A DNA stretch of 64,000 nt, taken from the IMG/VR virus record IMGVR_UViG_3300045918_000354, positions 1 through 64,000 of that record; one strand, given 5' to 3'. The translations under genes and the position numbers were made by a program. Positions 33,804-50,537 of this stretch are shown piece by piece. This DNA comes from a virus. The number at the start of each line of letters is the position of its first letter. Position 1 is the first letter of the stretch. The notes under the pieces were generated by a model that did no database searches, had not been told where the DNA came from, and saw only the letters and a list, made by a program, of their open reading frames with translations.

Positions 33804-35348
33804 TCAGACCAGCATGAACGGCATCGCTTCGCCTGAATCGCCCTCTTCGTCCTCAGGGTTCACGTACTCGTTGACCTGCTTGAACGCAGCATCGTTGTAG
33901 TCGGCGAGGCGCTTGAGCAGGCGAGTGATGCCAACCGTCGCCATGACGCAGTCATCCGTCGCGCCCTTCTTGCCCTCGTAGGTTCCACCCTTGGCGATGA
34001 AGTTCTTCAGCTCGAACAGCAGAATCTCAGAGTTGATCGTCATGCCACCCTTCGTCTTCTCGATCAATCGCTTGATCTGAAGGCAGGACAGAATCTTGCT
34101 CTTGCCGGTGGTGTAGACGCCGAGCTTGCCTGGGACGTCGCAGTACAGCTCGGCGTGCTCTGGCTGCTTCTCATCGTTGAAGTAGAGTGCGGCCAGCGCC
34201 TCACCGATGCCGTTGCGCTCGAACGTCCAGACGACCTCGGCGCGCCCGCGCCCCCTCGCCTCACAGAGCAGGTTCAGCATCCACTTGATCTTGGCGTAGA
34301 GCAGCGGGACGTTGATGTCATTGCTGCGCCACTCGGCAATCTGATTCAACCCTGGAAAGTCGAAGACCTCGACGACGCTGAAGTCGTTGCCGTTGCCTGT
34401 AGCAGGGTCAACGGACAGAAAGTACGTCTTGCCGGCACCGCCAAGCGAATCCTTCGGCACCCAGAACTTGTAGCCCATGTCAAGATGGTCGACCATCTTG
34501 GCGGCAAGCTTGTTGAGCACCATCGAGCTGATGAGCATAGCTTCAGAGCTGAGGAACTCACAGCCAACTTCCTGCCGAGTCTTGAGCTCGCCAAGCATGT
34601 TGACCATCGTCTGCCAGTACTCGTCGCTTCGCTCTGGGTGCTCACGCCAGTGCACCTCGAACGGTGCGAAGTTGGTGCCAGCCTTGTCCTCTGAGCCAGA
34701 CATAGCACGGCGCCAGATCTGAGCGAACAACTCAGTGTCGCCGTTTGGTGTCGATGACATGATGGCTGAACCACCAGTCGAGAGCGTTGGTGCCAGCGAC
34801 GCCCACAGCTCTTCTTGAATGCGTGGGTTGATGAACGCCAGCTCGTCAAGGTACAGCTTGGAGATGGACAGACCACGACCAGTCTTCTCAGTCGTCGCTT
34901 CAGAGACAATACGGGACCCATTGTCCATTTCAAGATTGTGCCGATTGTAGTACTTCATACCTGGTTTCAACCAGTTCGGCAACTCTTCGTAGGCGAAGCG
35001 AACACGAGCAGCGATCTCAAGGGCGTGTGATTGGTTCTTAGAAGCAATCAACACTGTTGCGTCATCAATGAAGCAAGCGTACCAAAGAAGATACATGGCA
35101 ACAGTCAGCGTCTTGCCGCACTGACGTGGTTGTAGTGTAACAACAAACCGGTTCGAGTGCATGTGTCGAACGAACCGTTCTTGGTAGTCAAAGAGATCGA
35201 ACTTGATTGTTCCACGTGTTGGGTGTTGAATCATCACGTAGTTGCGCATGAAGTAGACAGGATCTGTCCTGCACTTGCGTAATTCCATCACCATTTGAGG
35301 TGTGTATTCATCAGTCGCGTAAGCGCGCTTAATCTGAGGATTTTTCAC
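33804..35348 (-). CDS. 17: Terminase large subunit gp17
   Basis: 514 residues. Walker A QPRQCGKT at 73-80, Walker B LYLDE at 165-169, coupling motif SSTPNG near 199-204. The RNase-H-like nuclease domain has its first Asp in LSVDPATGNGND (313) and another acidic cluster at GATDDCVMA near the end. It is the ATP-driven DNA packaging motor and headful nuclease. GTG start overlaps the stop of a shorter paralogue upstream (GTGA). Slightly shorter than T4 gp17 (610). The two genes upstream are ATPase-domain relatives. Confidence 0.93.
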   Translation of the reverse strand: MKNPQIKRAYATDEYTPQMVMELRKCRTDPVYFMRNYVMIQHPTRGTIKFDLFDYQERFVRHMHSNRFVVTLQPRQCGKTLTVAMYLLWYACFIDDATVLIASKNQSHALEIAARVRFAYEELPNWLKPGMKYYNRHNLEMDNGSRIVSEATTEKTGRGLSISKLYLDELAFINPRIQEELWASLAPTLSTGGSAIMSSTPNGDTELFAQIWRRAMSGSEDKAGTNFAPFEVHWREHPERSDEYWQTMVNMLGELKTRQEVGCEFLSSEAMLISSMVLNKLAAKMVDHLDMGYKFWVPKDSLGGAGKTYFLSVDPATGNGNDFSVVEVFDFPGLNQIAEWRSNDINVPLLYAKIKWMLNLLCEARGRGRAEVVWTFERNGIGEALAALYFNDEKQPEHAELYCDVPGKLGVYTTGKSKILSCLQIKRLIEKTKGGMTINSEILLFELKNFIAKGGTYEGKKGATDDCVMATVGITRLLKRLADYNDAAFKQVNEYVNPEDEEGDSGEAMPFMLV

Positions 35349-36034
35349 ACGAAGTCCCCACCCAAGTCAACTGGGTGCAGCGTCCGTCCATTGATTCTCG
35401 ACGAGCGAATGTTCCCCATCTGCCACAAGTCGAAGAAGAAGTGATCTTGAGTGGTTGGATATCCGTGAATCAATAGCCGCCCGTCTGCTGGTATTGCCGG
35501 CAGCAGCGACTTCAGTCCGTCTACTACTTCTTCGCTGTTGCACACCGTCACGTCGCCAAGGACGATTAGGTTAGTTAAGTAGCCCGTGCCAACGTTATCG
35601 TGAAGGCGAGAGAAGTGAATGCGACTTCCATTGTCGAAGCGAACCTCGGCGCGGTTGTAGTAGGTCATGCTCGCGCCGACGTTCGCGCTCTGAGAGCCGA
35701 ACATAGCCAATGCCTGGTCGCGAACCATCGCTGCCATCGTAGAGGTTGGCAGCACGAACAGACAGAAGACGTTGCTGTGGAACTGAGCGTACCACAGCGC
35801 GTAGGCGATGGAGGCGAGAGTGACGCCAACACCTCGGTCTTGCTTGCAGACGACCAGAAAATCATCGTGAAGTCGCGTCACCAGATGAAGCTGCTCATCG
35901 TTCAAATCGAACCGTCGACGATGTGGCAGCTCAAGGTGATGCTCGATGAAGTAGATTGGGTCGAAGCAGGACAAGTCCTCAACGGACATTGCGTCGTACT
36001 TGTCCTTAGCGCGCTTTGAGAGAATCAGTGCCAT
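35345..36034 (-). CDS. Terminase ATPase-domain paralogue, P-loop Lys lost
   Basis: 229 residues. Aligns with gp17 over its ATPase half: FDPIYFIEHHLELPHRRRF ~ TDPVYFMRNYVM, KQDRGVGVTLASIAYALWYA ~ QPRQCGKTLTVAMYLLWYA, YYNRAEVRFDNGSRIHFS ~ YYNRHNLEMDNGSRIVS. The P-loop Lys is Val and the Walker B acids are missing (LIVLGDVT). No nuclease domain. So it is probably inactive as an ATPase; it may be a structural or regulatory partner of the packaging motor. ATG 36034. Confidence 0.75.
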   Translation of the reverse strand: MALILSKRAKDKYDAMSVEDLSCFDPIYFIEHHLELPHRRRFDLNDEQLHLVTRLHDDFLVVCKQDRGVGVTLASIAYALWYAQFHSNVFCLFVLPTSTMAAMVRDQALAMFGSQSANVGASMTYYNRAEVRFDNGSRIHFSRLHDNVGTGYLTNLIVLGDVTVCNSEEVVDGLKSLLPAIPADGRLLIHGYPTTQDHFFFDLWQMGNIRSSRINGRTLHPVDLGGDFV

Positions 36035-36037
36035 AGC

Positions 36038-36826
36038 TTATCCTGGTATTTCAGCGCCGAGCTCGCGCTTTGTGTTGTATAGACCTGAGGTCTGAACGTT
36101 CGCGTCCCACTTAGCTTGCGAAGCGTACGGTAGGTCCCAATAGCCAATGCTGTGCGCGTGCAGTGGTGGCACACCAAAGATGGTCTTTGACCAGAGCTGA
36201 GCGAACATGTCCAGCGCGGTGTTTGGCGTCGAGTGCATGAAGACGCGTGAGCCTCTATTCATCGAGTTGATGTGCTGCACCCAAGTAATGTTTGCGACAG
36301 CCAAATCGAAGTAGGCGAAGTCAGTGAAGTAGATTGACGCTGGCGTCATCGTGTAGTGCAGATTGGCGTTCGCCGCTGCGAAGTAGACGACTGAGCCGTT
36401 CATCAGCACCAGCGACATGTTCACCGATGAGGCGACTGGCGACGACAGCCAGAACGGCACGCTGCCAAGCAAACTGCGGAACGTCTCGTACGCCTGTCGA
36501 GCCATCGTGGAGTTTGGTGCGAGCACGATGCGCGGCTCATCTGAGCGAAACAACACCTCCCAAACCAGATACGCCATGGCAATCGTGCTGACGCCAGCGC
36601 GGCGCGGATGCTTGGTGATCAGTTGATTGTGCGTAGCCAGCTCGTTGATCAGATTCTTCTGCAGCTCATAGAGCGGGATTGGACGCAGAACCCCGCCAAC
36701 TGGTAGACGAATGAAGTGCTCGATGAAGTACAGCGGATCGTCCTTGCACTTCATGGCTTCAGCAGCGCGCTCACTAGCCTTTCGCTCGCCGGCCCTTAGA
36801 CGTGCTCGATGCGACAGAATGTTCAT
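36038..36826 (-). CDS. Second terminase ATPase-domain paralogue
   Basis: 262 residues. Same layout as gp17's ATPase half: DDPLYFIEHFIRLP, ITKHPRRAGVSTIAMAYLV in place of Walker A (the Lys is again Val), SLVLMNGSVVYFAA, ASIYFTDFAYFDLA in place of Walker B (Glu missing), and HSTPNTALDMFAQLW matching the coupling motif SSTPNGDTELFAQIW. Ends before the nuclease domain. The retained coupling segment argues for a kept fold. Three bases upstream of the other paralogue; both precede gp17 in one unit. Confidence 0.75.
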   Translation of the reverse strand: MNILSHRARLRAGERKASERAAEAMKCKDDPLYFIEHFIRLPVGGVLRPIPLYELQKNLINELATHNQLITKHPRRAGVSTIAMAYLVWEVLFRSDEPRIVLAPNSTMARQAYETFRSLLGSVPFWLSSPVASSVNMSLVLMNGSVVYFAAANANLHYTMTPASIYFTDFAYFDLAVANITWVQHINSMNRGSRVFMHSTPNTALDMFAQLWSKTIFGVPPLHAHSIGYWDLPYASQAKWDANVQTSGLYNTKRELGAEIPG

Positions 36827-37410
36827 GCGAATACCTCCTGAAACAATGCCTCGCGAATGATCTGAACGGTGCGCTCATGTGAGAGCACCTCAAAGTGATT
36901 CGCCTTGACCTCGATCTTGGTGCCATACGGCAGCGCCTTCTGACTTGAGATGGCGACAACGCTGTCGTTCGGCTCCAGACTGCCACCGAGCTGTCCGCCG
37001 ATAGAGATGATGTTCGTGACTGGGATCTGAAGGGATGAACCCAACAGCTCTCGAATGCGTGAGCTGTGCGGCATGACGTCGCTCATCACGGCCGGATGTC
37101 CAGGCACCCAGCGCAGTAGGCTTGCTGCCTTGCTGCCAGCGATCGGCGAGGAGATGGTGAGAACGCGCTCGACGTTGATGATGCCCTGACAGGCGATGAG
37201 GAGGGCGATGATGCCGCCGAGCGAGTGCCCGACGATGGAGATTGGAACGACCTTCGGTAGAAGGTGAACGATCTGCTCTAGCGACTTCTCGAGCGGTTGA
37301 TGACTCGCATAGTTGATGCAGATCTTCTTGTGCGCCGGCAGGTCCCGTAGCATGTAGTTGAAGGACCGATGAGACCCAGCAAGACCATGAATGTAGGCGA
37401 CGGTTTTCAT
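36823..37410 (-). CDS. Alpha/beta hydrolase
   Basis: 195 residues. YIHGLAGSHRSF holds the oxyanion HG, the nucleophile elbow is GHSLGG (about 62-67), and the likely catalytic His is in KANHFEVLSHE near 175. Resembles small lipase/esterase-type hydrolases; the substrate may be a lipid or ester on the cell envelope. ATG 37410; a late TAAATA lies at 37437-37442. Coupled to the terminase paralogues by overlap (ATGA), which is odd for an enzyme of this kind. Confidence 0.75.
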   Translation of the reverse strand: MKTVAYIHGLAGSHRSFNYMLRDLPAHKKICINYASHQPLEKSLEQIVHLLPKVVPISIVGHSLGGIIALLIACQGIINVERVLTISSPIAGSKAASLLRWVPGHPAVMSDVMPHSSRIRELLGSSLQIPVTNIISIGGQLGGSLEPNDSVVAISSQKALPYGTKIEVKANHFEVLSHERTVQIIREALFQEVFA

Positions 37411-43138: not shown

Positions 43139-43933
43139 TCACCCAGACATCTTGTTCTGAAGAACAAGAGCATCCCAGGTCTTGTCGGTCATGATCAGCA
43201 CCTTGCCGGACACCCATACCTCTGCCTCGTCCATGGCGTTGCGAACTGATCGTGAATCGTACTGTTCGAACCCAAGAATCTCAGGTGACAGGCTGCCGTT
43301 CAGATAACCCATGAAGTCGTCGAGAACGTCCGTGTCCTTCGCCGCCTCTGGAAACGCTTTTTCAAAGCCCTTGACGGCATCTTCATCCCGATTGGCGAGC
43401 TTCTCGGCGAAGTCGCAGAGGCCATCAATCGTGTCTGTAATCTTGAGATGCTTAAGCCAAGAGTTGAAGTCCTCAAAACCTATAGAGCTTCCAACGCCGA
43501 ACGGTTGAAACTCAACGCCCCAAATGTCAACGGCCTCGACGCTGCCAATCTTCGCGTCATTGAACGGAACGATTGCGTAGAGCCCACCGCTGCGCTGCGA
43601 GTAGCCCTCGGCGTAGTTCTTGTCGAGCGAGCAGATGAGCGACTGACTGCGCTTCGGCCAGCCCTCAAAGTAGCTGCTGTGATCGAGGATCTCAGTGTAG
43701 TAGTTTTGCGAGTTCTGCGATTTGCGCTTTGACTGGTGCGTGTCGATGACTGCGATCTTGCCTTCTGGCGCTGGCTGCACTCCGTGAAAGCCCTTCCAAA
43801 TCGGACGATCCTTCTCCAGCATCCACTTCGCGTTCTTGCACGATGTCTTGAACAGCTCAAGCGCGTTCTCAATGACCTCAGGCTTCAGCGGCGATCCCTT
43901 GACCTCGGCTTCGAAGAGTTCAGCGAGTCTCAT
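43139..43933 (-). CDS. Putative packaged ADP-ribosyltransferase-like protein A1
   Basis: 264 residues. N-terminus MRLAELFEAEVKGSP is a targeting sequence with L-F-E cut site. First of four closely related paralogues: PIWKGFHG (the usual Arg is Lys here), NYYTEILDHSSYF, PKRSQSLICS, LYAIVPFNDAKIG and AEVWVSGKVLIM. The conserved Arg, Ser and Glu positions across the set resemble the R-S-E triad of ADP-ribosyltransferases; loss of Arg in this copy may mean altered or no activity. Stop follows the late promoter region of the next unit. Confidence 0.6.
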   Translation of the reverse strand: MRLAELFEAEVKGSPLKPEVIENALELFKTSCKNAKWMLEKDRPIWKGFHGVQPAPEGKIAVIDTHQSKRKSQNSQNYYTEILDHSSYFEGWPKRSQSLICSLDKNYAEGYSQRSGGLYAIVPFNDAKIGSVEAVDIWGVEFQPFGVGSSIGFEDFNSWLKHLKITDTIDGLCDFAEKLANRDEDAVKGFEKAFPEAAKDTDVLDDFMGYLNGSLSPEILGFEQYDSRSVRNAMDEAEVWVSGKVLIMTDKTWDALVLQNKMSG

Positions 43934-44703
43934 TCGTCATCCTGCACGCCAGCGTCATACGCCTTGCGAATGCGCTGCCACATTGGCTCTTCGATCATCA
44001 TGACCTTGCCACCAACCCAGACCTCGCCCTCAACGCCCTTCATGTTCGAGGTGGTGTGCAGCGTGAAGCCAAGATTCTTTGGCGAGTACTCGCGATAGAG
44101 GTAGGCCATGAAGTCATTGCGCTCTTCTTGTGAGATGTACTTCATGCCGCTTGGCACCTCGAACTTCGGATCCTTCAGCTTCTTGGCGAAGGCCTTGAGA
44201 CCCTCAATCGTATCTGGAATGCCGGCTTGCTCGAACTTCTTGTTCATGTAGTTCAGCTCTTGCTCGAAGTCGCCAAACGACACCGTCGCATCCCAGATGT
44301 CGAAGCTATTCACCGCGCCAATCTTGGCATCGTCGAATGGAATCATGGCATAGAGGTACGAGCCGAAGCCAGTGAAGTCATAGGACCGAGTCTTCTCAGT
44401 TGTGCCAATGAGCGACTGACTGCGCTTTGGAAAGCCAGCCATTGCTGGATTGTTGTCGAAAATGACCGTGTAGTAGTTCTTCGTGTTCTCAGACTTGCGC
44501 TCTGACTGGCTCGTGTCAACGACGAGGAACGGCGCAGCCTTGTTCGTCTTCGCACCACGCCAGATTGGCTTGTTCTCGTGCAGCATCCAAAGGGCGTTCT
44601 TGCAGTGCGTGTTGAGAATGTCAATCGCCTCCTTCGTCTTCTTCGGATCGTACTTGATCGCCTTGCCCTTGACTGCGGCTTCATAGAGTTCTTGTAGCTT
44701 CAT
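43930..44703 (-). CDS. Putative packaged ADP-ribosyltransferase-like protein A2
   Basis: 257 residues. Targeting N-terminus MKLQELYEAAVKGK. Motifs: PIWRGAKT (Arg), SERKSENTKNYYTVIF, PKRSQSLIGT (Ser strand, last Cys-Ser changed to Gly-Thr), LYAMIPFDDAKIG, and GEVWVGGKVMMI (Glu). Overlaps both neighbours by four bases (ATGA), so the set is translationally coupled. Predicted activity: transfer of ADP-ribose from NAD+ to a host target after injection; unproven. Confidence 0.65.
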   Translation of the reverse strand: MKLQELYEAAVKGKAIKYDPKKTKEAIDILNTHCKNALWMLHENKPIWRGAKTNKAAPFLVVDTSQSERKSENTKNYYTVIFDNNPAMAGFPKRSQSLIGTTEKTRSYDFTGFGSYLYAMIPFDDAKIGAVNSFDIWDATVSFGDFEQELNYMNKKFEQAGIPDTIEGLKAFAKKLKDPKFEVPSGMKYISQEERNDFMAYLYREYSPKNLGFTLHTTSNMKGVEGEVWVGGKVMMIEEPMWQRIRKAYDAGVQDDE

Positions 44704-45491
44704 TCGTCGTCCTCAACCGTTTGCCCAGCTGCCTTGCTCAACTCCTTGTACGACGCGCGAATGCGGTCCCACATCTTCTTCTTGATCAGCATGACCTTGC
44801 CCTCGACCCAGACCTCACCAAACTTAGCTCTCTTCACGGTCGCTGAGTTGTGAAGCGTGAAGCCAAGCCTCTTTGGATCGTACGCGTCGAAGATGGTGCC
44901 CATCAGGTCTTGCCGTTGCTCGGCTGTCAGCATCTTATCCAGCTGATGAATGTCGCCAGCCTTCACTCGTGCCGCAATCTTCTCAAGCCCCTCGATGCTT
45001 TCGGCTGCGCCAAGATAGCGCCAGAAGTCATTCCACTCTTCAATCTCCTGCGTCACAGACCCTAAGGAGACTCTAGCGTCCCAGATGTCCTCGCTGTTCA
45101 CAGCGCCGATCTTGGCGTCGTCATATGGAATCAAGGCGTAGAGCCAGCTGCTATTGTGCTGCGCGTAGCCAAACGCACGATCAAGATCTTTCGAGCAGAT
45201 GAGCGACTTGCTGCGCTTTGGCCAGCCAGCCATCTTCGGATTGTTGTCGAGGATGATTGTGTAGTAGTTGCGCGTGTTGGTGCTGGCGCGCTCCGACTTG
45301 GAGGTGTCGACGGTTGAGAAGTCTTCAAGCGAATGCTTGTGCCCGCGCCACAGCGGATTGTTGTCGTGCAACATCCACAGCGCCTTCTTGCAGTGCTTGT
45401 TGAGAAGGTCAATGGCGTCTTTGACACCCTTACTCTCAATCTGCATGTCCTTGCCGTAGACGGCAGATTCGTGTAGCTCTTGTAGGTTCAC
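44700..45491 (-). CDS. Putative packaged ADP-ribosyltransferase-like protein A3
   Basis: 263 residues. Targeting N-terminus MNLQELHESAVYGKD. Motifs: PLWRGHKHS, SERASTNTRNYYTIIL, PKRSKSLICS, LYALIPYDDAKIG, GEVWVEGKVMLI (E-x-W...E). All three triad positions are kept. Helical inserts differ from A1/A2 in the 140-200 region, as expected if target-recognition parts vary. Confidence 0.65.
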   Translation of the reverse strand: MNLQELHESAVYGKDMQIESKGVKDAIDLLNKHCKKALWMLHDNNPLWRGHKHSLEDFSTVDTSKSERASTNTRNYYTIILDNNPKMAGWPKRSKSLICSKDLDRAFGYAQHNSSWLYALIPYDDAKIGAVNSEDIWDARVSLGSVTQEIEEWNDFWRYLGAAESIEGLEKIAARVKAGDIHQLDKMLTAEQRQDLMGTIFDAYDPKRLGFTLHNSATVKRAKFGEVWVEGKVMLIKKKMWDRIRASYKELSKAAGQTVEDDE

Positions 45492-46273
45492 TTGGCGCCC
45501 TTGGTAAGTGACTTGTAGGTCTTGACAAGCTTGTCCAACATGTCTGGGTGAATCATCATGACTCGACCGCCGACCCAGACCTCACCTTCGACGCCGTGCA
45601 GATTAGAGGTGGTGTGCAAAGAGAAGCCGAGCTTGTGTGGCGAGTAGGCATCGTACAGCTCGTCCATGAAGTTTTCCTTAACGTCATACGTGATTGAAAG
45701 CCTTGCACTGCCGTACTTCAGACTTGGCTTGACGTCGCCGGCTCGAAGGTTCTCAGCAAACTCCTCAAGGCTACGAATGTTGTCCTCAATGCCCCACTGC
45801 TCGTAGACCTCATTGATATTGGAGATGCTTTCAGTTAGGCCAAAGATCGACACTTGAACGTTCCACATGTCGGCCTCGTTGACAGCGCCAATCTTGGTGC
45901 CGTCAAATGGGATGATGGCGAAGGCACTAAGATTACCAGACGCAAAGGCTTCAGCATCATGCCTGTCCATCGAGCAGATGAGCGACCTGCTGCGCTTCGG
46001 ATACTTCGCCATCTTCGGATTGTTGTCGAGAATGGCAGTGTAGTAGTTCGATGTGTTCTCGCTGACTCGCTCGGTCTTGCTCGTGTCGATCATTTGAAAC
46101 AGCAAGTTTGGCGCGTGCGAAAAACCACGCCAGATCGGCGTGTTGTTGTGCAGCATCCACAGCGCGTCCTTGCAGTGAGCGTTGAGCAGGTCAATCGCCT
46201 TCTGAACATCAGGCACCGGCTCAAACTGAAGCTCCTTACCAGCAGCGGCTTCGTAGAGTTCGGCGAGCTTCAT
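45488..46273 (-). CDS. Putative packaged ADP-ribosyltransferase-like protein A4
   Basis: 261 residues from ATG 46273 (upstream GTG lacks a ribosome site). Targeting N-terminus MKLAELYEAAAGKEL. Motifs: PIWRGFSHA, TERVSENTSNYYTAIL, PKRSRSLICS, FAIIPFDGTKIG, GEVWVGGRVMMI. Last of the first group of four; the kinase gene upstream separates it from the second group. Confidence 0.65.
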   Translation of the reverse strand: MKLAELYEAAAGKELQFEPVPDVQKAIDLLNAHCKDALWMLHNNTPIWRGFSHAPNLLFQMIDTSKTERVSENTSNYYTAILDNNPKMAKYPKRSRSLICSMDRHDAEAFASGNLSAFAIIPFDGTKIGAVNEADMWNVQVSIFGLTESISNINEVYEQWGIEDNIRSLEEFAENLRAGDVKPSLKYGSARLSITYDVKENFMDELYDAYSPHKLGFSLHTTSNLHGVEGEVWVGGRVMMIHPDMLDKLVKTYKSLTKGAK

Positions 46274-47034
46274 TTGTACCACCCATTGACGAGCTGCTTG
46301 AGCTTGTCATCCGTGACGATCGATGGCTTCAGATACTTCTGCTTCGTCTCTTCAAGCTTGGCGAGCGTGCGCTTACCAACTGGATTCTTGAGCGGTGCGC
46401 TGAAGAACGCTTGCACCGACTTGTAAGCCTTCTTCAAGGCGTCATCGTTGAGCTGACCTGCGTCGTTGTCGACCTGACGGAAGAAGGTAGTCTTCGACTT
46501 CAGATAGGCGACGTTCTCGGCGTTCTGATCGGCGACGAACTTGATGAAGTCCTGCGTGACCTTGCGACGACGGTTGTTGGCGCGCTGCACAGCGGTTTCG
46601 AAGGTGGCGTTCACAAACACGATACCCACGTCGTAGCCAAGCGATTCGAGAATGCCGACACGGTGCATGATGCGCGATACGTTGTTCGAGGTGCCGTCGA
46701 CGAAGAGCGGCAGCATGCCATCGATGTAGCCAGTGAGCGTGTTGACCGTGATGCGCTGCGCCGAGTCGGCAATGTCCTGAGTCCACTGGTCATCGACCTC
46801 ATCCTCATTCTTGTCGAAGGTCTTTGCGTCGGTTCGAATGTTCTTCTTGCTCTTCGTGATGCCAGTGAGGTGCTCAACAGCACGGTCGGTGTTGACGATG
46901 CGCGGCTCAACGCCGCCGCTGAGCTTCGTGATCGTGTAGCTCTTGCCAGAGCCAGGCAGCCCGATGACGAAGATCGCCTTGAAGAGACCCTTGTCGTTGA
47001 TTGATTCGTCGAGATACTGCTTGAAGGTGATCAT
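46270..47034 (-). CDS. Putative head-packaged P-loop kinase
   Basis: 254 residues. Targeting N-terminus MITFKQYLDESINDKG. Then Walker A AIFVIGLPGSGKSYTITKL (about 20-35), PLFVDGTSNNVSRIMHRV and DVGIVFVNATFETAVQRANN, which is the order of small zeta-toxin/polynucleotide-kinase-like P-loop enzymes. Arg residues in RANNRRRKV could form the lid. Substrate unknown (nucleotide, nucleic acid or UDP-sugar). Sits between the two groups of four transferase-like genes and overlaps both. Confidence 0.7.
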   Translation of the reverse strand: MITFKQYLDESINDKGLFKAIFVIGLPGSGKSYTITKLSGGVEPRIVNTDRAVEHLTGITKSKKNIRTDAKTFDKNEDEVDDQWTQDIADSAQRITVNTLTGYIDGMLPLFVDGTSNNVSRIMHRVGILESLGYDVGIVFVNATFETAVQRANNRRRKVTQDFIKFVADQNAENVAYLKSKTTFFRQVDNDAGQLNDDALKKAYKSVQAFFSAPLKNPVGKRTLAKLEETKQKYLKPSIVTDDKLKQLVNGWYK

Positions 47035-47900
47035 ATCGCGTTCTTCTGGTAAGCCTTGTGAATCGGGTGTCCTTGCGTCTCCAGCTCAGTCAGAATCTCG
47101 CGAAAGATGCTGACTGGAATCAAGATCGCCTTTGCTGAGAACCAGCACTCTTTTCCGTGAGGGCTGTTGACGTTCGTGACACCGAGGGCACTGCCGTATT
47201 TATGCAGGCTCAGCTTCAAAGTTGCCGGGGTTAGGTCTTGCGAGGCGATGTAGTCGAAGCGATTGTTCTTGACCTTCTCGAAGATCTTGGTGTACGTTGG
47301 CCAGTTGAATGTCTTCGGCATCGCGGCAGCCAGCTCAGTGACGAACTCCTCAGCCGTCGCCTTTGCGAAAGCTTTGTTGACCATGGCAGCGTCCGTGAAC
47401 TTGTATCCCTTAGGCTCGTAGCCAAGACTAGTGGCAAGATTTTCAAGCTGGTAGCTGAAGCTCTCAAGACCTTGAGTGAAGGTGCCGGTCTTGTACTTGG
47501 CGTAGAGCAGATCTCGCTTCTCATAAACAGCAATCTGCGTTCCATCCTCTGGAATCACAACGTACACCGAACCATAGGCGTTGGCGTTTAGAAAGCTCGT
47601 CGAGCAGATGAGCGACTTGCTGCGAGACGGATAGTCTTGCAGCGCTGTCGAGCGCTCCATTGCGAGCTGGTACAGGCTGTTCGAGTCTCTTGAGGTTCGA
47701 ATGCCAGTTCGCGGGTCGATCGTGTGAATGGCGTCAGGCGCGTTCTCATTGCCACGAAACAGCAGCCCACCGTTAGAGATGGCGCTAAGCCCGTCCCGAT
47801 GTGAGGTGTTCAGAATGTCGATCGCCTTGCGAACCGTGAGATTCTGGCTCTCCCACTTCTTGATGACCTTCTCGGCGAGGAACTCTTTGAAGGTGATCAT
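47031..47900 (-). CDS. Putative packaged ADP-ribosyltransferase-like protein A5
   Basis: 289 residues from ATG 47900, overlapping the next gene upstream (ATGA). Targeting N-terminus MITFKEFLAEKVIKKWE. Second subgroup motifs: GGLLFRGNEN (Arg), RTSRDSNSLYQLAMERS, PSRSKSLICS, VYVVIPEDGTQIA, and KECWFSAKAILIP (Glu; subgroup has E-C-W instead of E-V-W). Confidence 0.65.
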   Translation of the reverse strand: MITFKEFLAEKVIKKWESQNLTVRKAIDILNTSHRDGLSAISNGGLLFRGNENAPDAIHTIDPRTGIRTSRDSNSLYQLAMERSTALQDYPSRSKSLICSTSFLNANAYGSVYVVIPEDGTQIAVYEKRDLLYAKYKTGTFTQGLESFSYQLENLATSLGYEPKGYKFTDAAMVNKAFAKATAEEFVTELAAAMPKTFNWPTYTKIFEKVKNNRFDYIASQDLTPATLKLSLHKYGSALGVTNVNSPHGKECWFSAKAILIPVSIFREILTELETQGHPIHKAYQKNAI

Positions 47901-48760
47901 GTTTGCCACGCCATGCTAGCGTACTTGTGAGCGATCTCGTGTCCGCTCTTGTCTAGCTCTTGCAACATGCCCTTGAAGATCTTCATCGGAATCATGAGGC
48001 ACTTCGATGAGACCCAGCACTCGACGCTCTTGTCGCTGAGAAAGGATCCGTACGGAACCAGGCGAAGATCGAGCTGAAGAGGCGACATTGAATCAGCGGC
48101 GAGATAGTCGAAGCGGTTGTGAACGTTTCGCTCAAACTCCTTGAGCAGCATCGCTTGAGCGCCAGAGTCAATTGTGTTTGACGCGCGGGCAACAAGCGCT
48201 GTTGTGAACTTCTTCGCATTGAGCTTGGAGAAGATCTTGTTGAGCTCTGCTGCCGTTTCAAACGTATCTTTGACCTCGCCGCCGCAGTCTTTTACTAGAC
48301 GTTGAAGGTCAGGTCCGAAGGCTCGAATCTCATCGCACACAATCGAATCGTGAATAGTCTGCTCGAGAAAGTCACCCTCTTCAGAGACGGCAATCTTCGC
48401 GTCGTTTGCCGGAATGAGCGCGTACGCGTAGCCGTAGGTGCTGGCACCACTTGGCGTTGTTGAGCAGATGAGCGACTTACCGCGCGATGGATAGAGCTTC
48501 ATTGCTGGTGAGATGTCCATCGCGAGCTGATAGATGTTGTTCGTGTCGCGCGACGAGCGAAGACCCTTCGCTGGATTGATCTGACGAACCTCACCGTGTA
48601 TGTCGTGCTGACCACGGAACAGCAGTCCACCATTCGTCACGGCAGACAACCAGTTCGAGTGCGTCTCGCTCAATCGCTTCGTCAGCTTCTTGGTGTCGAT
48701 GTCCTTCTCTTTCCACGGCTTGAGAACGGCTTCTTCCAGGTATTCTTTGAAGGTCAGCAT
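47897..48760 (-). CDS. Putative packaged ADP-ribosyltransferase-like protein A6
   Basis: 287 residues from ATG 48760. Targeting N-terminus MLTFKEYLEEAVLKPW. Motifs: GGLLFRGQHD, RSSRDTNNIYQLAMDIS, PSRGKSLICS, YALIPANDAKIA, VECWVSSKCLMIP. The C-terminal helix after E-C-W (MKIFKGMLQELDKSGHEIAH) is shared by the whole subgroup. Confidence 0.65.
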   Translation of the reverse strand: MLTFKEYLEEAVLKPWKEKDIDTKKLTKRLSETHSNWLSAVTNGGLLFRGQHDIHGEVRQINPAKGLRSSRDTNNIYQLAMDISPAMKLYPSRGKSLICSTTPSGASTYGYAYALIPANDAKIAVSEEGDFLEQTIHDSIVCDEIRAFGPDLQRLVKDCGGEVKDTFETAAELNKIFSKLNAKKFTTALVARASNTIDSGAQAMLLKEFERNVHNRFDYLAADSMSPLQLDLRLVPYGSFLSDKSVECWVSSKCLMIPMKIFKGMLQELDKSGHEIAHKYASMAWQT

Positions 48761-48762
48761 AG

Positions 48763-49632
48763 TTAGTTCTTGTAGTGCCACGCGGTCGCGTCACCGATGT
48801 ACTGTCGATAGATTGAGTAGTCGGCATCCTCAAGCTGTCGAATGATTGAGGCGAAGCGCGACACTGCGATGACGAGGCAGCGCGTGTCAACCCAGCACTC
48901 GACGCCGCGATCAGGAGAGAGCGTCTCGCCAAACTTCTTGAGGCGCAGCTCAAGAGCTCGTGGTGTCAGCTCATCGCTGGCGAGCGCGTCAAAGCGATTG
49001 CGCTTGTGCGTCTCGAAGAACTTTTCGTAGTAGATGAGGTCTGCCGGTGATGCTGCGTCGAACACGAGCTCGGCAGCACGGCGCGATGTGACGGCGTCGA
49101 GTGCAGCGTTGATTGGCTTAGCGTCGATGAACTTGCCCTGCTCATTAGGCTCGATGTCGAGCAGATTGCAGAGGCGTCGAAAGAACTTGTCGAGGCTTGT
49201 GACGCGACTACCAAAGTCGCTCTCAATCGGCTGCTCTAGAAAGTCTGAGACGTTCGACATCACGACCTTCGCGTTGTTCGGTGGAAACACGACGAACACG
49301 TTTCCATAGTCATCAGCGTGGTGCCAGCTCGTCGAGCAGATGAGCGAGTGCGAGCGCTTCGGATAGTCTTGTAGCGAGACAGACCGGTCCATACCAAGCT
49401 GATACAGGTTGTACGAGTCGCGTGAGGTGCGGGCAGCAGACGTCGGGTCGATGTAGACAGAGTCCTTGACGGTCGCTGTATTGAAGCCGCGGAACAGCAG
49501 CCCACCGTTCTCGATAGCCTTCAGCGCTGACTCGCTCTTTATCAGCAGGTCGAAGAGCTTGTCGTGTTCGACTGGCTCCTCCTCCCACTTCTTGAGAATG
49601 ACCTCGTTGAGGTATTGCTTGAAGGTGATCAC
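48763..49632 (-). CDS. Putative packaged ADP-ribosyltransferase-like protein A7
   Basis: 289 residues, GTG start overlapping the previous stop (GTGA). Targeting N-terminus (V)ITFKQYLNEVILKKW. Motifs: GGLLFRGFNT, RTSRDSYNLYQLGMDRS, PKRSHSLICS, VFVVFPPNNAKVV, VECWVDTRCLVIA. All triad positions kept. Confidence 0.65.
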   Translation of the reverse strand: MITFKQYLNEVILKKWEEEPVEHDKLFDLLIKSESALKAIENGGLLFRGFNTATVKDSVYIDPTSAARTSRDSYNLYQLGMDRSVSLQDYPKRSHSLICSTSWHHADDYGNVFVVFPPNNAKVVMSNVSDFLEQPIESDFGSRVTSLDKFFRRLCNLLDIEPNEQGKFIDAKPINAALDAVTSRRAAELVFDAASPADLIYYEKFFETHKRNRFDALASDELTPRALELRLKKFGETLSPDRGVECWVDTRCLVIAVSRFASIIRQLEDADYSIYRQYIGDATAWHYKN

Positions 49633-50537
49633 TCTTGTCGCCCAATCATCTTTGGAAAGATTCCGTTTTCCATCATCGTCTTGTACTTAGCGTGAATCGG
49701 GAAGCTCTGCTCCTTAAGTCGATTCAGAATGTCGCCGAACATCGGGCACGGGATTGCCATGCAGCGCGCGCTGAGCCAGCACTCGTAGTCGTAGATTGGT
49801 TCAAGGTTCTCGCCGTACTCGACGAGGCGAGTGCTGATCGTCGCTGGTGTAAAGCTGAACGTGGCGATCGCGTCAAAGCGATTCTTCTTGTGCTTCTCAA
49901 AGAAGTCGATCAAATCTTCTTTCGATATCACACAGTAGCTGTACGAGTCGAATGCCTCAGCGATCTCTTCAGGCGTCTTAGAGTCGAAGACACGATTGAG
50001 CGCATCAGCATCAGTGAACTTGCCATCACCGCGGTGATCAATCTTGAGTTGCTCAGCGACGCGCCGTAGCAGCGTGCTGAAGCTTTCAACGGACGAGGTG
50101 AAGCTGCCCTTCATGAACGTCTCAGTTGCGAAGTCTTCAGACTGCGACACCGCAATCTTCGTACCGTCGACTGGCACGATGACGTACGGCGTACCGTAGT
50201 GGCGAGCGTCGTAGGCGCTCGTCGAGCAGATGAGCGCCTTGCTGCGAGACGGATAATCCTTCAGCGCAGCAGAGCGATCCATCGCGAGCTGATACATGTT
50301 GTTCGAGTCGCGTGAGGTGCGCTCGCCCTTCGATGGATCGACGATCGCCATCGAGCCACGCTCAACGCCGAGCTCCTTGAACCCGCGGAACAGCAGCCCG
50401 CCGGTCGTGATGGCCTTGAGACCATCACGATGCGAGGAGTTCAGCATGCCGACAGCCTTCTCCGTCTCAACGGAGAACTGCTCCCACGGCTTGATGATAG
50501 CCTCGCCGAGGCTAAGGAACTGCTTGAACGTGATCAC
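49629..50537 (-). CDS. Putative packaged ADP-ribosyltransferase-like protein A8
   Basis: 302 residues, GTG start overlapping the previous stop. Targeting N-terminus (V)ITFKQFLSLGEAIIKPW; the cut site here is shifted to L-G-E. Motifs: GGLLFRGFKE, RTSRDSNNMYQLAMDRS, PSRSKALICS (Ser to Ala once), PYVIVPVDGTKIA, YECWLSARCMAIP. First-translated of the array, next to the gp16-like gene. Confidence 0.65.
   Translation of the reverse strand: MITFKQFLSLGEAIIKPWEQFSVETEKAVGMLNSSHRDGLKAITTGGLLFRGFKELGVERGSMAIVDPSKGERTSRDSNNMYQLAMDRSAALKDYPSRSKALICSTSAYDARHYGTPYVIVPVDGTKIAVSQSEDFATETFMKGSFTSSVESFSTLLRRVAEQLKIDHRGDGKFTDADALNRVFDSKTPEEIAEAFDSYSYCVISKEDLIDFFEKHKKNRFDAIATFSFTPATISTRLVEYGENLEPIYDYECWLSARCMAIPCPMFGDILNRLKEQSFPIHAKYKTMMENGIFPKMIGRQE

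Follow-up and report, generated by a model that had tools for sequence, protein, structure and literature searches.

The terminase locus and its two additional genes

The window analysed here is a stretch of 64 kb from a giant phage, out of a 69,468-base virus record. Its minus strand carries, in this order, an alpha/beta-hydrolase-like gene (36823..37410), a 262-aa TerL-like copy (P0003, 36038..36826), a 229-aa TerL-like copy (P0002, 35345..36034) and TerL itself, a gp17-type large terminase of 514 aa (33804..35348) with intact Walker A (RQCGKT) and Walker B (LYLDE) motifs and a nuclease domain. The last three frames, which a sequence-only reading of this DNA had delimited, exist with exactly these boundaries. 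The hydrolase gene, at the 5′ edge of the slot occupied by the copies, overlaps the 262-aa copy by 4 nt; the two copies are separated by 3 nt, and the 229-aa copy overlaps the start of TerL by another 4 nt. The window TerL is nearest to those of jumbo myoviruses (XacN1, 43%; RAS14, 40%; PA5oct, 38%), and other genes of the window encode a tail sheath, a tail tube, a helicase, a UvsX-like protein and a ribonucleotide reductase. Eight tandem paralogous genes of phrog_12810, of unknown function, occupy positions 43139-50537 (257-302 aa, two subgroups, 22-50% identity), the array being broken by a polynucleotide-kinase-like gene with an intact P-loop (46270-47034).

Sequence comparison and structure prediction indicate that each copy is homologous to the ATPase half of TerL and has a gp17-like ASCE ATPase fold. 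By BLASTP, TerL is 27% identical to the 229-aa copy over 222 aa (E 2e-22) and 23% identical to the 262-aa copy over 248 aa (E 5e-26), and the copies are 26% identical to each other (E 2e-16). PHROG terminase profiles match all three proteins, and Pfam Terminase_6N is above cut-off in TerL and the 262-aa copy. The AlphaFold models of the 262-aa copy (pLDDT 93.0) and the 229-aa copy (pLDDT 87.5) match T4 gp17 (3cpe) with Z scores of 28.3 over 245 residues and 24.9 over 214 residues, respectively; both were built on a TerL-rich alignment, so that the predicted fold is not independent of the homology. The structural matches also include a TerL bound in an Avs3 complex (8dgc_E). The proposed relationship to the ATPase half of TerL is thus borne out by BLASTP, PHROG profiles and predicted fold. 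The proposed lack of the nuclease domain also holds: Terminase_6C, the RNase H-like nuclease, has a match in TerL alone, just under cut-off, and none in either copy, and both frames (the longer one including the lid) end at the ATPase/nuclease domain border without the C-terminal nuclease.

Both window copies are apparently inactive, judging by their catalytic motifs. In gp17 numbering, assigned by alignment, the P-loop lysine K166 is replaced by Val in both (DRGVGVT in the 229-aa copy and PRRAGVST in the 262-aa copy vs. PRQCGKT in TerL). The Walker B segment LYLDELAF of TerL reads IVLGDVTV in the 229-aa copy (core LGDV; D to G, E to D) and IYFTDFAY in the 262-aa copy (core FTDF; D to T, E to D), so that the DE pair has become GD or TD and the catalytic Glu is gone from both. 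The valine substitutions and the degraded Walker B motifs had been claimed in the sequence-only reading, correctly in each case. Q143, R162 and G165 are present in both copies; mutation of R56 of HK97, the equivalent of R162, affects both packaging and ATPase activity (PMC9410871). R245 is absent from both, the finger Arg-Gly (R245 G246) being replaced by T-G and Y-T. This residue aligns with R139 of P74-26 TerL, a trans-acting finger confirmed biochemically; for T4 itself this position of the finger is unproven, and in D6E a different arginine serves (PMC5727402). At TerL alignment position 72, seven residues before the lost P-loop Lys, a Lys is found in 5/5 copies of the window group and also in three TerLs; it might partly stand in for the missing residue.

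Recurrence of ATPase-only TerL paralogues in large phages

Viral contigs were searched with profiles of TerL and of the paralogues, their flanks were scanned, and named phages were searched as well. This yielded 17 further ATPase-only paralogues of similar make-up from other phages, almost all of them large or jumbo; single-protein searches for close homologues in viral contigs gave no matches, and profile searches were required. Fifteen of the 17 lie directly 5′ of TerL, both in viral contigs (L087, L171, L088, L094, L009, L105, L106, L025, L143 and L204, of which L094, L106 and L025 measure 332, 364 and 102 kb, respectively) and in the cultured phages CBB, GAP32, Kaldavass, XbC2 and BF. The placement of an ATPase-only copy 5′ of TerL, to which the sequence-only reading had drawn attention, is therefore found in contigs and cultured phages alike, and here too copy and TerL are joined by short overlaps or gaps. 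SNUABM Erwinia phages have orthologues of 40% identity. In Phosso and Atu_ph07 the copies are located away from TerL; the Phosso protein (XYS97501.1, L329 2309-3154) is TerL ATPase-like with GRSMGIT at the P-loop, lies near the major capsid gene and is annotated as terminase small subunit.

The nearest named phages by TerL (XacN1, RAS14, Phosso and PA5oct) have no clear copy beside TerL. In RaK2, TerL alone was matched, and phiM12 gave a single match, in a TerL-length frame, despite the truncated copy named for it in PMC5259590. Two candidates were too weak to be counted. One is a 319-aa frame directly 5′ of TerL (L027 6988-7926) with RQSGST at the P-loop site, maybe a very diverged copy, for which hhalign gave a probability of 55 to the TerL ATPase profile. 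The other, XacN1 ORF261 (L003 2315-3100), resembles a very diverged dead P-loop copy in its N-terminal part (KRMHGIT); over about 30 residues close to the C-terminal end it matches gp23, the major capsid protein, at ~65%, and it is possibly a chimera. A second ATPase fragment in L025 (7073-7489, 138 aa, intact P-loop, 46% identical to the adjoining copy) looks like decay under way. TerL genes of this group can themselves be split or hold inserts, as in Atu_ph07 and RaK2, and a 715-aa TerL frame in L102 (1882-4026), ~200 residues longer than its relatives, probably contains an intein or insert.

The two window copies and the 17 others were compared at 41 TerL-invariant positions, of which they retain 57% on average. 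The losses are selective: K166 is present in 3/19 copies (L025, L094 and L204) and E256 in 4/19, compared to 18/18 for Q143 and R162 and 19/19 for G165, with F120 likewise always present where aligned. In 15 copies the Lys is replaced, in 13 of them by I, L, V or F (I 5, L 5, V 2, S 2, F 1); the Glu is missing from all 15 and present in all three Lys-bearing copies. In the sixteenth Lys-less copy, that of L143, the whole P-loop region is gone. R245 is present in 14/19 copies, including L087 and all five CBB-type copies, which are themselves just 39-86% identical. The C-terminal end falls at TerL residues 263-272 (gp17 350-359), near the ATPase/nuclease border, in 16/19 copies. This pattern suggests proteins that have abandoned hydrolysis but still possess the domain and some of the nucleotide pocket. 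The copies of L025, L094 and L204, whose catalytic residues look intact, may represent older or different states.

Empty slots in close relatives

The hydrolase gene lies 5′ of the occupied slot in the window, L087, L088 and L094. In L089, L096, L090, L007, L102 and L110 this gene immediately precedes TerL, and no copy intervenes. In the close relative L089 (TerL 71% identical) the slot is thus empty, and when the L089 (112 kb) and L090 (311 kb) contigs were searched over the entire record, TerL was the sole match. Slot content therefore varies within one clade. The hydrolase-like gene is kept directly upstream of the slot in ~10 related contigs.

Related copies evolve fast under purifying selection

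Selection was assessed by simple Nei-Gojobori dN/dS on copies related to the window genes, several values being near saturation and the window copies having no relative close enough for this test. The ratio is ~0.15-0.5 across the tested copies, with the same range in the CBB group. The L087 and L171 copies are 61% identical (dN 0.32, dS 1.03, dN/dS 0.31; their TerLs, dN 0.08, dS 0.69), the CBB and GAP32 copies 57% identical (dN 0.32, dS 1.46; TerLs 97% identical, dN 0.02), and the Kaldavass and XbC2 copies have a dN of 0.07 and a dS of 0.46. Non-synonymous change is ~4-20 times faster in the copies than in TerL. For L087 and L171, neutral simulation at the observed divergence gave a mean of 10.9 stops per pair and left 0/2000 open. 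By these measures the copies related to the window genes are selected genes under purifying selection rather than debris, which supports the earlier view that inactive-looking copies have been retained.

In trees, most copies sit on long end branches (up to ~3 changes per column vs. a median of 0.29 over all rows) and fall into two to four groups. Window-group and CBB-group copies join with support of 82/82, on long branches. AU tests do not reject a single origin of all copies (p 0.087 with 12 copies and 0.279 with 18). Loss of the P-loop Lys takes no fewer than two events on the larger tree, and no fewer than three on the smaller one.

A possible partner of the packaging motor

The two genes are best seen as dead, nuclease-less TerL paralogues, and their likeliest role, for which confidence and doubt weigh about equally, is that of a co-translated pseudo-ATPase partner of TerL, either in a mixed ring or as a regulator of packaging. 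The linkage to TerL, the domain-exact truncation and the residue pattern together point to a TerL-related role. Both copies would be translated in step with TerL and would associate with it as partners that do not fire, either at the portal or ahead of docking. In this way they would modulate packaging; they might fill some positions of the ring, for instance, or slow down initiation, translocation or cutting. Copies with the finger arginine (CBB, GAP32, BF and L087) could donate R245 to a neighbouring active TerL. Since R245 is lost from both window copies, such donation is unlikely here, and the window copies are more likely to be passive or inhibitory partners.

Mechanically, a dead partner made of the ATPase domain alone is plausible, because T4 motors containing dead gp17 still package, if less well (PMC8589836), and because in the D6E terminase cis and trans arginine mutants complement each other and removal of the nuclease domain raises ATPase activity (PMC5727402). 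On the other hand, one dead subunit is reported to stop the lambda motor, according to the discussion in PMC8589836, so that subunit doping could be harmful, and the Phosso and Atu_ph07 copies are not beside TerL. An obligatory ring subunit is disfavoured by the slot being empty in close relatives and by the copies evolving much faster than TerL; the same fast evolution and patchy presence leave room for a regulator or for a decoy of TerL-sensing Avs proteins. The hetero-oligomeric motor or packaging regulator put forward in the sequence-only reading is thus upheld in part: homology, inactivation and retention under selection are borne out, and a mixed motor is compatible with the data and with the tolerance of T4 for dead subunits, while the empty slots and fast evolution count against an obligatory ring subunit, and both window copies have also lost the finger arginine that most other copies retain. 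That many jumbo phages would have a packaging ring of two or three different gene products, with dedicated dead subunits setting the firing pattern and donating an arginine finger where they still have one, is a speculative extension that we consider rather doubtful.

The main rival, an unlikely one, is a decoy or dominant-negative protein directed against bacterial TerL sensors of the Avs1-Avs3 type: a mimic of the TerL fold would bind the sensor without triggering it, for want of the nuclease half and perhaps of the nucleotide. What Avs1-Avs4 recognise is, according to the introduction of PMC12931631, the large terminase, the portal or some other protein of the phage; the Avs3-bound TerL among the structural matches, as well as patchy presence and fast evolution in the manner of an arms race, would fit. 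However, a decoy has no need for a position beside TerL, and the retention of R162 and Q143 would be left unexplained. If correct, this would be a phage answer to TerL-sensing immunity. Somewhat less probable is a selected, TerL-descended protein whose present role is unrelated to packaging: long branches and the displaced Phosso and Atu_ph07 copies agree with it, but TerL linkage in most genomes and the retained motor residues do not.

We regard as improbable a replacement or helper of TerS, recognising or loading DNA for TerL from the T4-like TerS gene position, even though the copy lies directly 5′ of TerL, as TerS does, and the Phosso copy is annotated accordingly. PF11053 (T4 gp16) was not over cut-off in 13 records, but no control was over cut-off either, and so insensitive a scan does not establish that TerS is absent; moreover, close relatives without a copy must package too, and the fold is that of the gp17 ATPase. 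Least credible, and very much so, are non-functional remnants of a tandem partial TerL duplication (e.g., after intron or intein traffic) persisting by chance. The split or insert-bearing TerL genes of Atu_ph07 and RaK2, the broken second copy of L025 (138 aa) and the L143 copy without its P-loop region are what such a history might leave, but frames open at 33-61% identity, dN/dS well below 1 and the neutral simulation speak against it, as do a truncation point and residue pattern that are alike across lineages. The selection tests lead us to reject a pseudogene reading, and a split gene or intron is rejected for the window, where TerL is complete and the copies span the ATPase domain.

Should the partner role be correct, viral packaging motors may not always consist of identical subunits. 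Whether the positions of a ring divide the labour among them has been an open question for phi29 and T4, and a natural, selected, inactive TerL half beside TerL in cultured CBB, GAP32 and BF makes it directly accessible to genetics and biochemistry. The rings of viral packaging ATPases are described as homomeric (PMC9410871); a mixed ring, if true, would break that rule for tailed phages.

Comparison with known systems

CBB has been described as having two gp17-domain proteins, one of them (CBB_274) truncated; in that report this is called unusual, and a truncated gp17-domain protein is said to be shared by other Rak2-like phages, phiM12 and phiN3 (PMC5259590, 2017). Beyond this remark we found no discussion of inactive TerL paralogues in the open-access literature, subscription papers and preprints lying outside the search. 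Relative to that literature, what seems to be new is the loss of the active site, the evidence of selection, the recurrence in many phages, the presence of two copies side by side and the existence of empty slots, the excerpts of PMC5259590 being silent on active site and function. TerL-like copies of this kind, which often carry the annotation of a large or small terminase subunit, are probably misannotated.

The Rak2-like proteins CBB_274, GAP32_268 and BF_0272 resemble the window copies in being ATPase-only TerL paralogues directly 5′ of TerL. The truncated Rak2-like copies measure 229-236 aa; their P-loop Lys is replaced by Leu or Ile (Val in the window), and in both cases the Walker B Glu is lost and the P-loop Arg kept. 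Rak2-like phages differ in having one copy, not two, and other flanking genes, and the finger R-G is found in 5/5 CBB-type copies, whereas R245 is lost in both window copies. With the T4 gp17 ATPase domain (2o0h, 3cpe) the window copies share the fold over 214-245 residues at ~2 Å, the adenine-motif Gln and the P-loop Arg, but not the P-loop Lys, the catalytic Glu or the nuclease domain. T4 motors doped with ATPase-dead gp17 are mixed live/dead rings like the state proposed here (PMC8589836). The subunits added there are engineered (Q163A) and carry the nuclease domain, whereas the window copies are natural and nuclease-less. In the phi29 packaging ring one subunit is special and labour is divided among ring positions, all subunits coming from one gene. 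The division of labour in our proposal would be alike, except that here distinct genes would supply the subunits of the ring.
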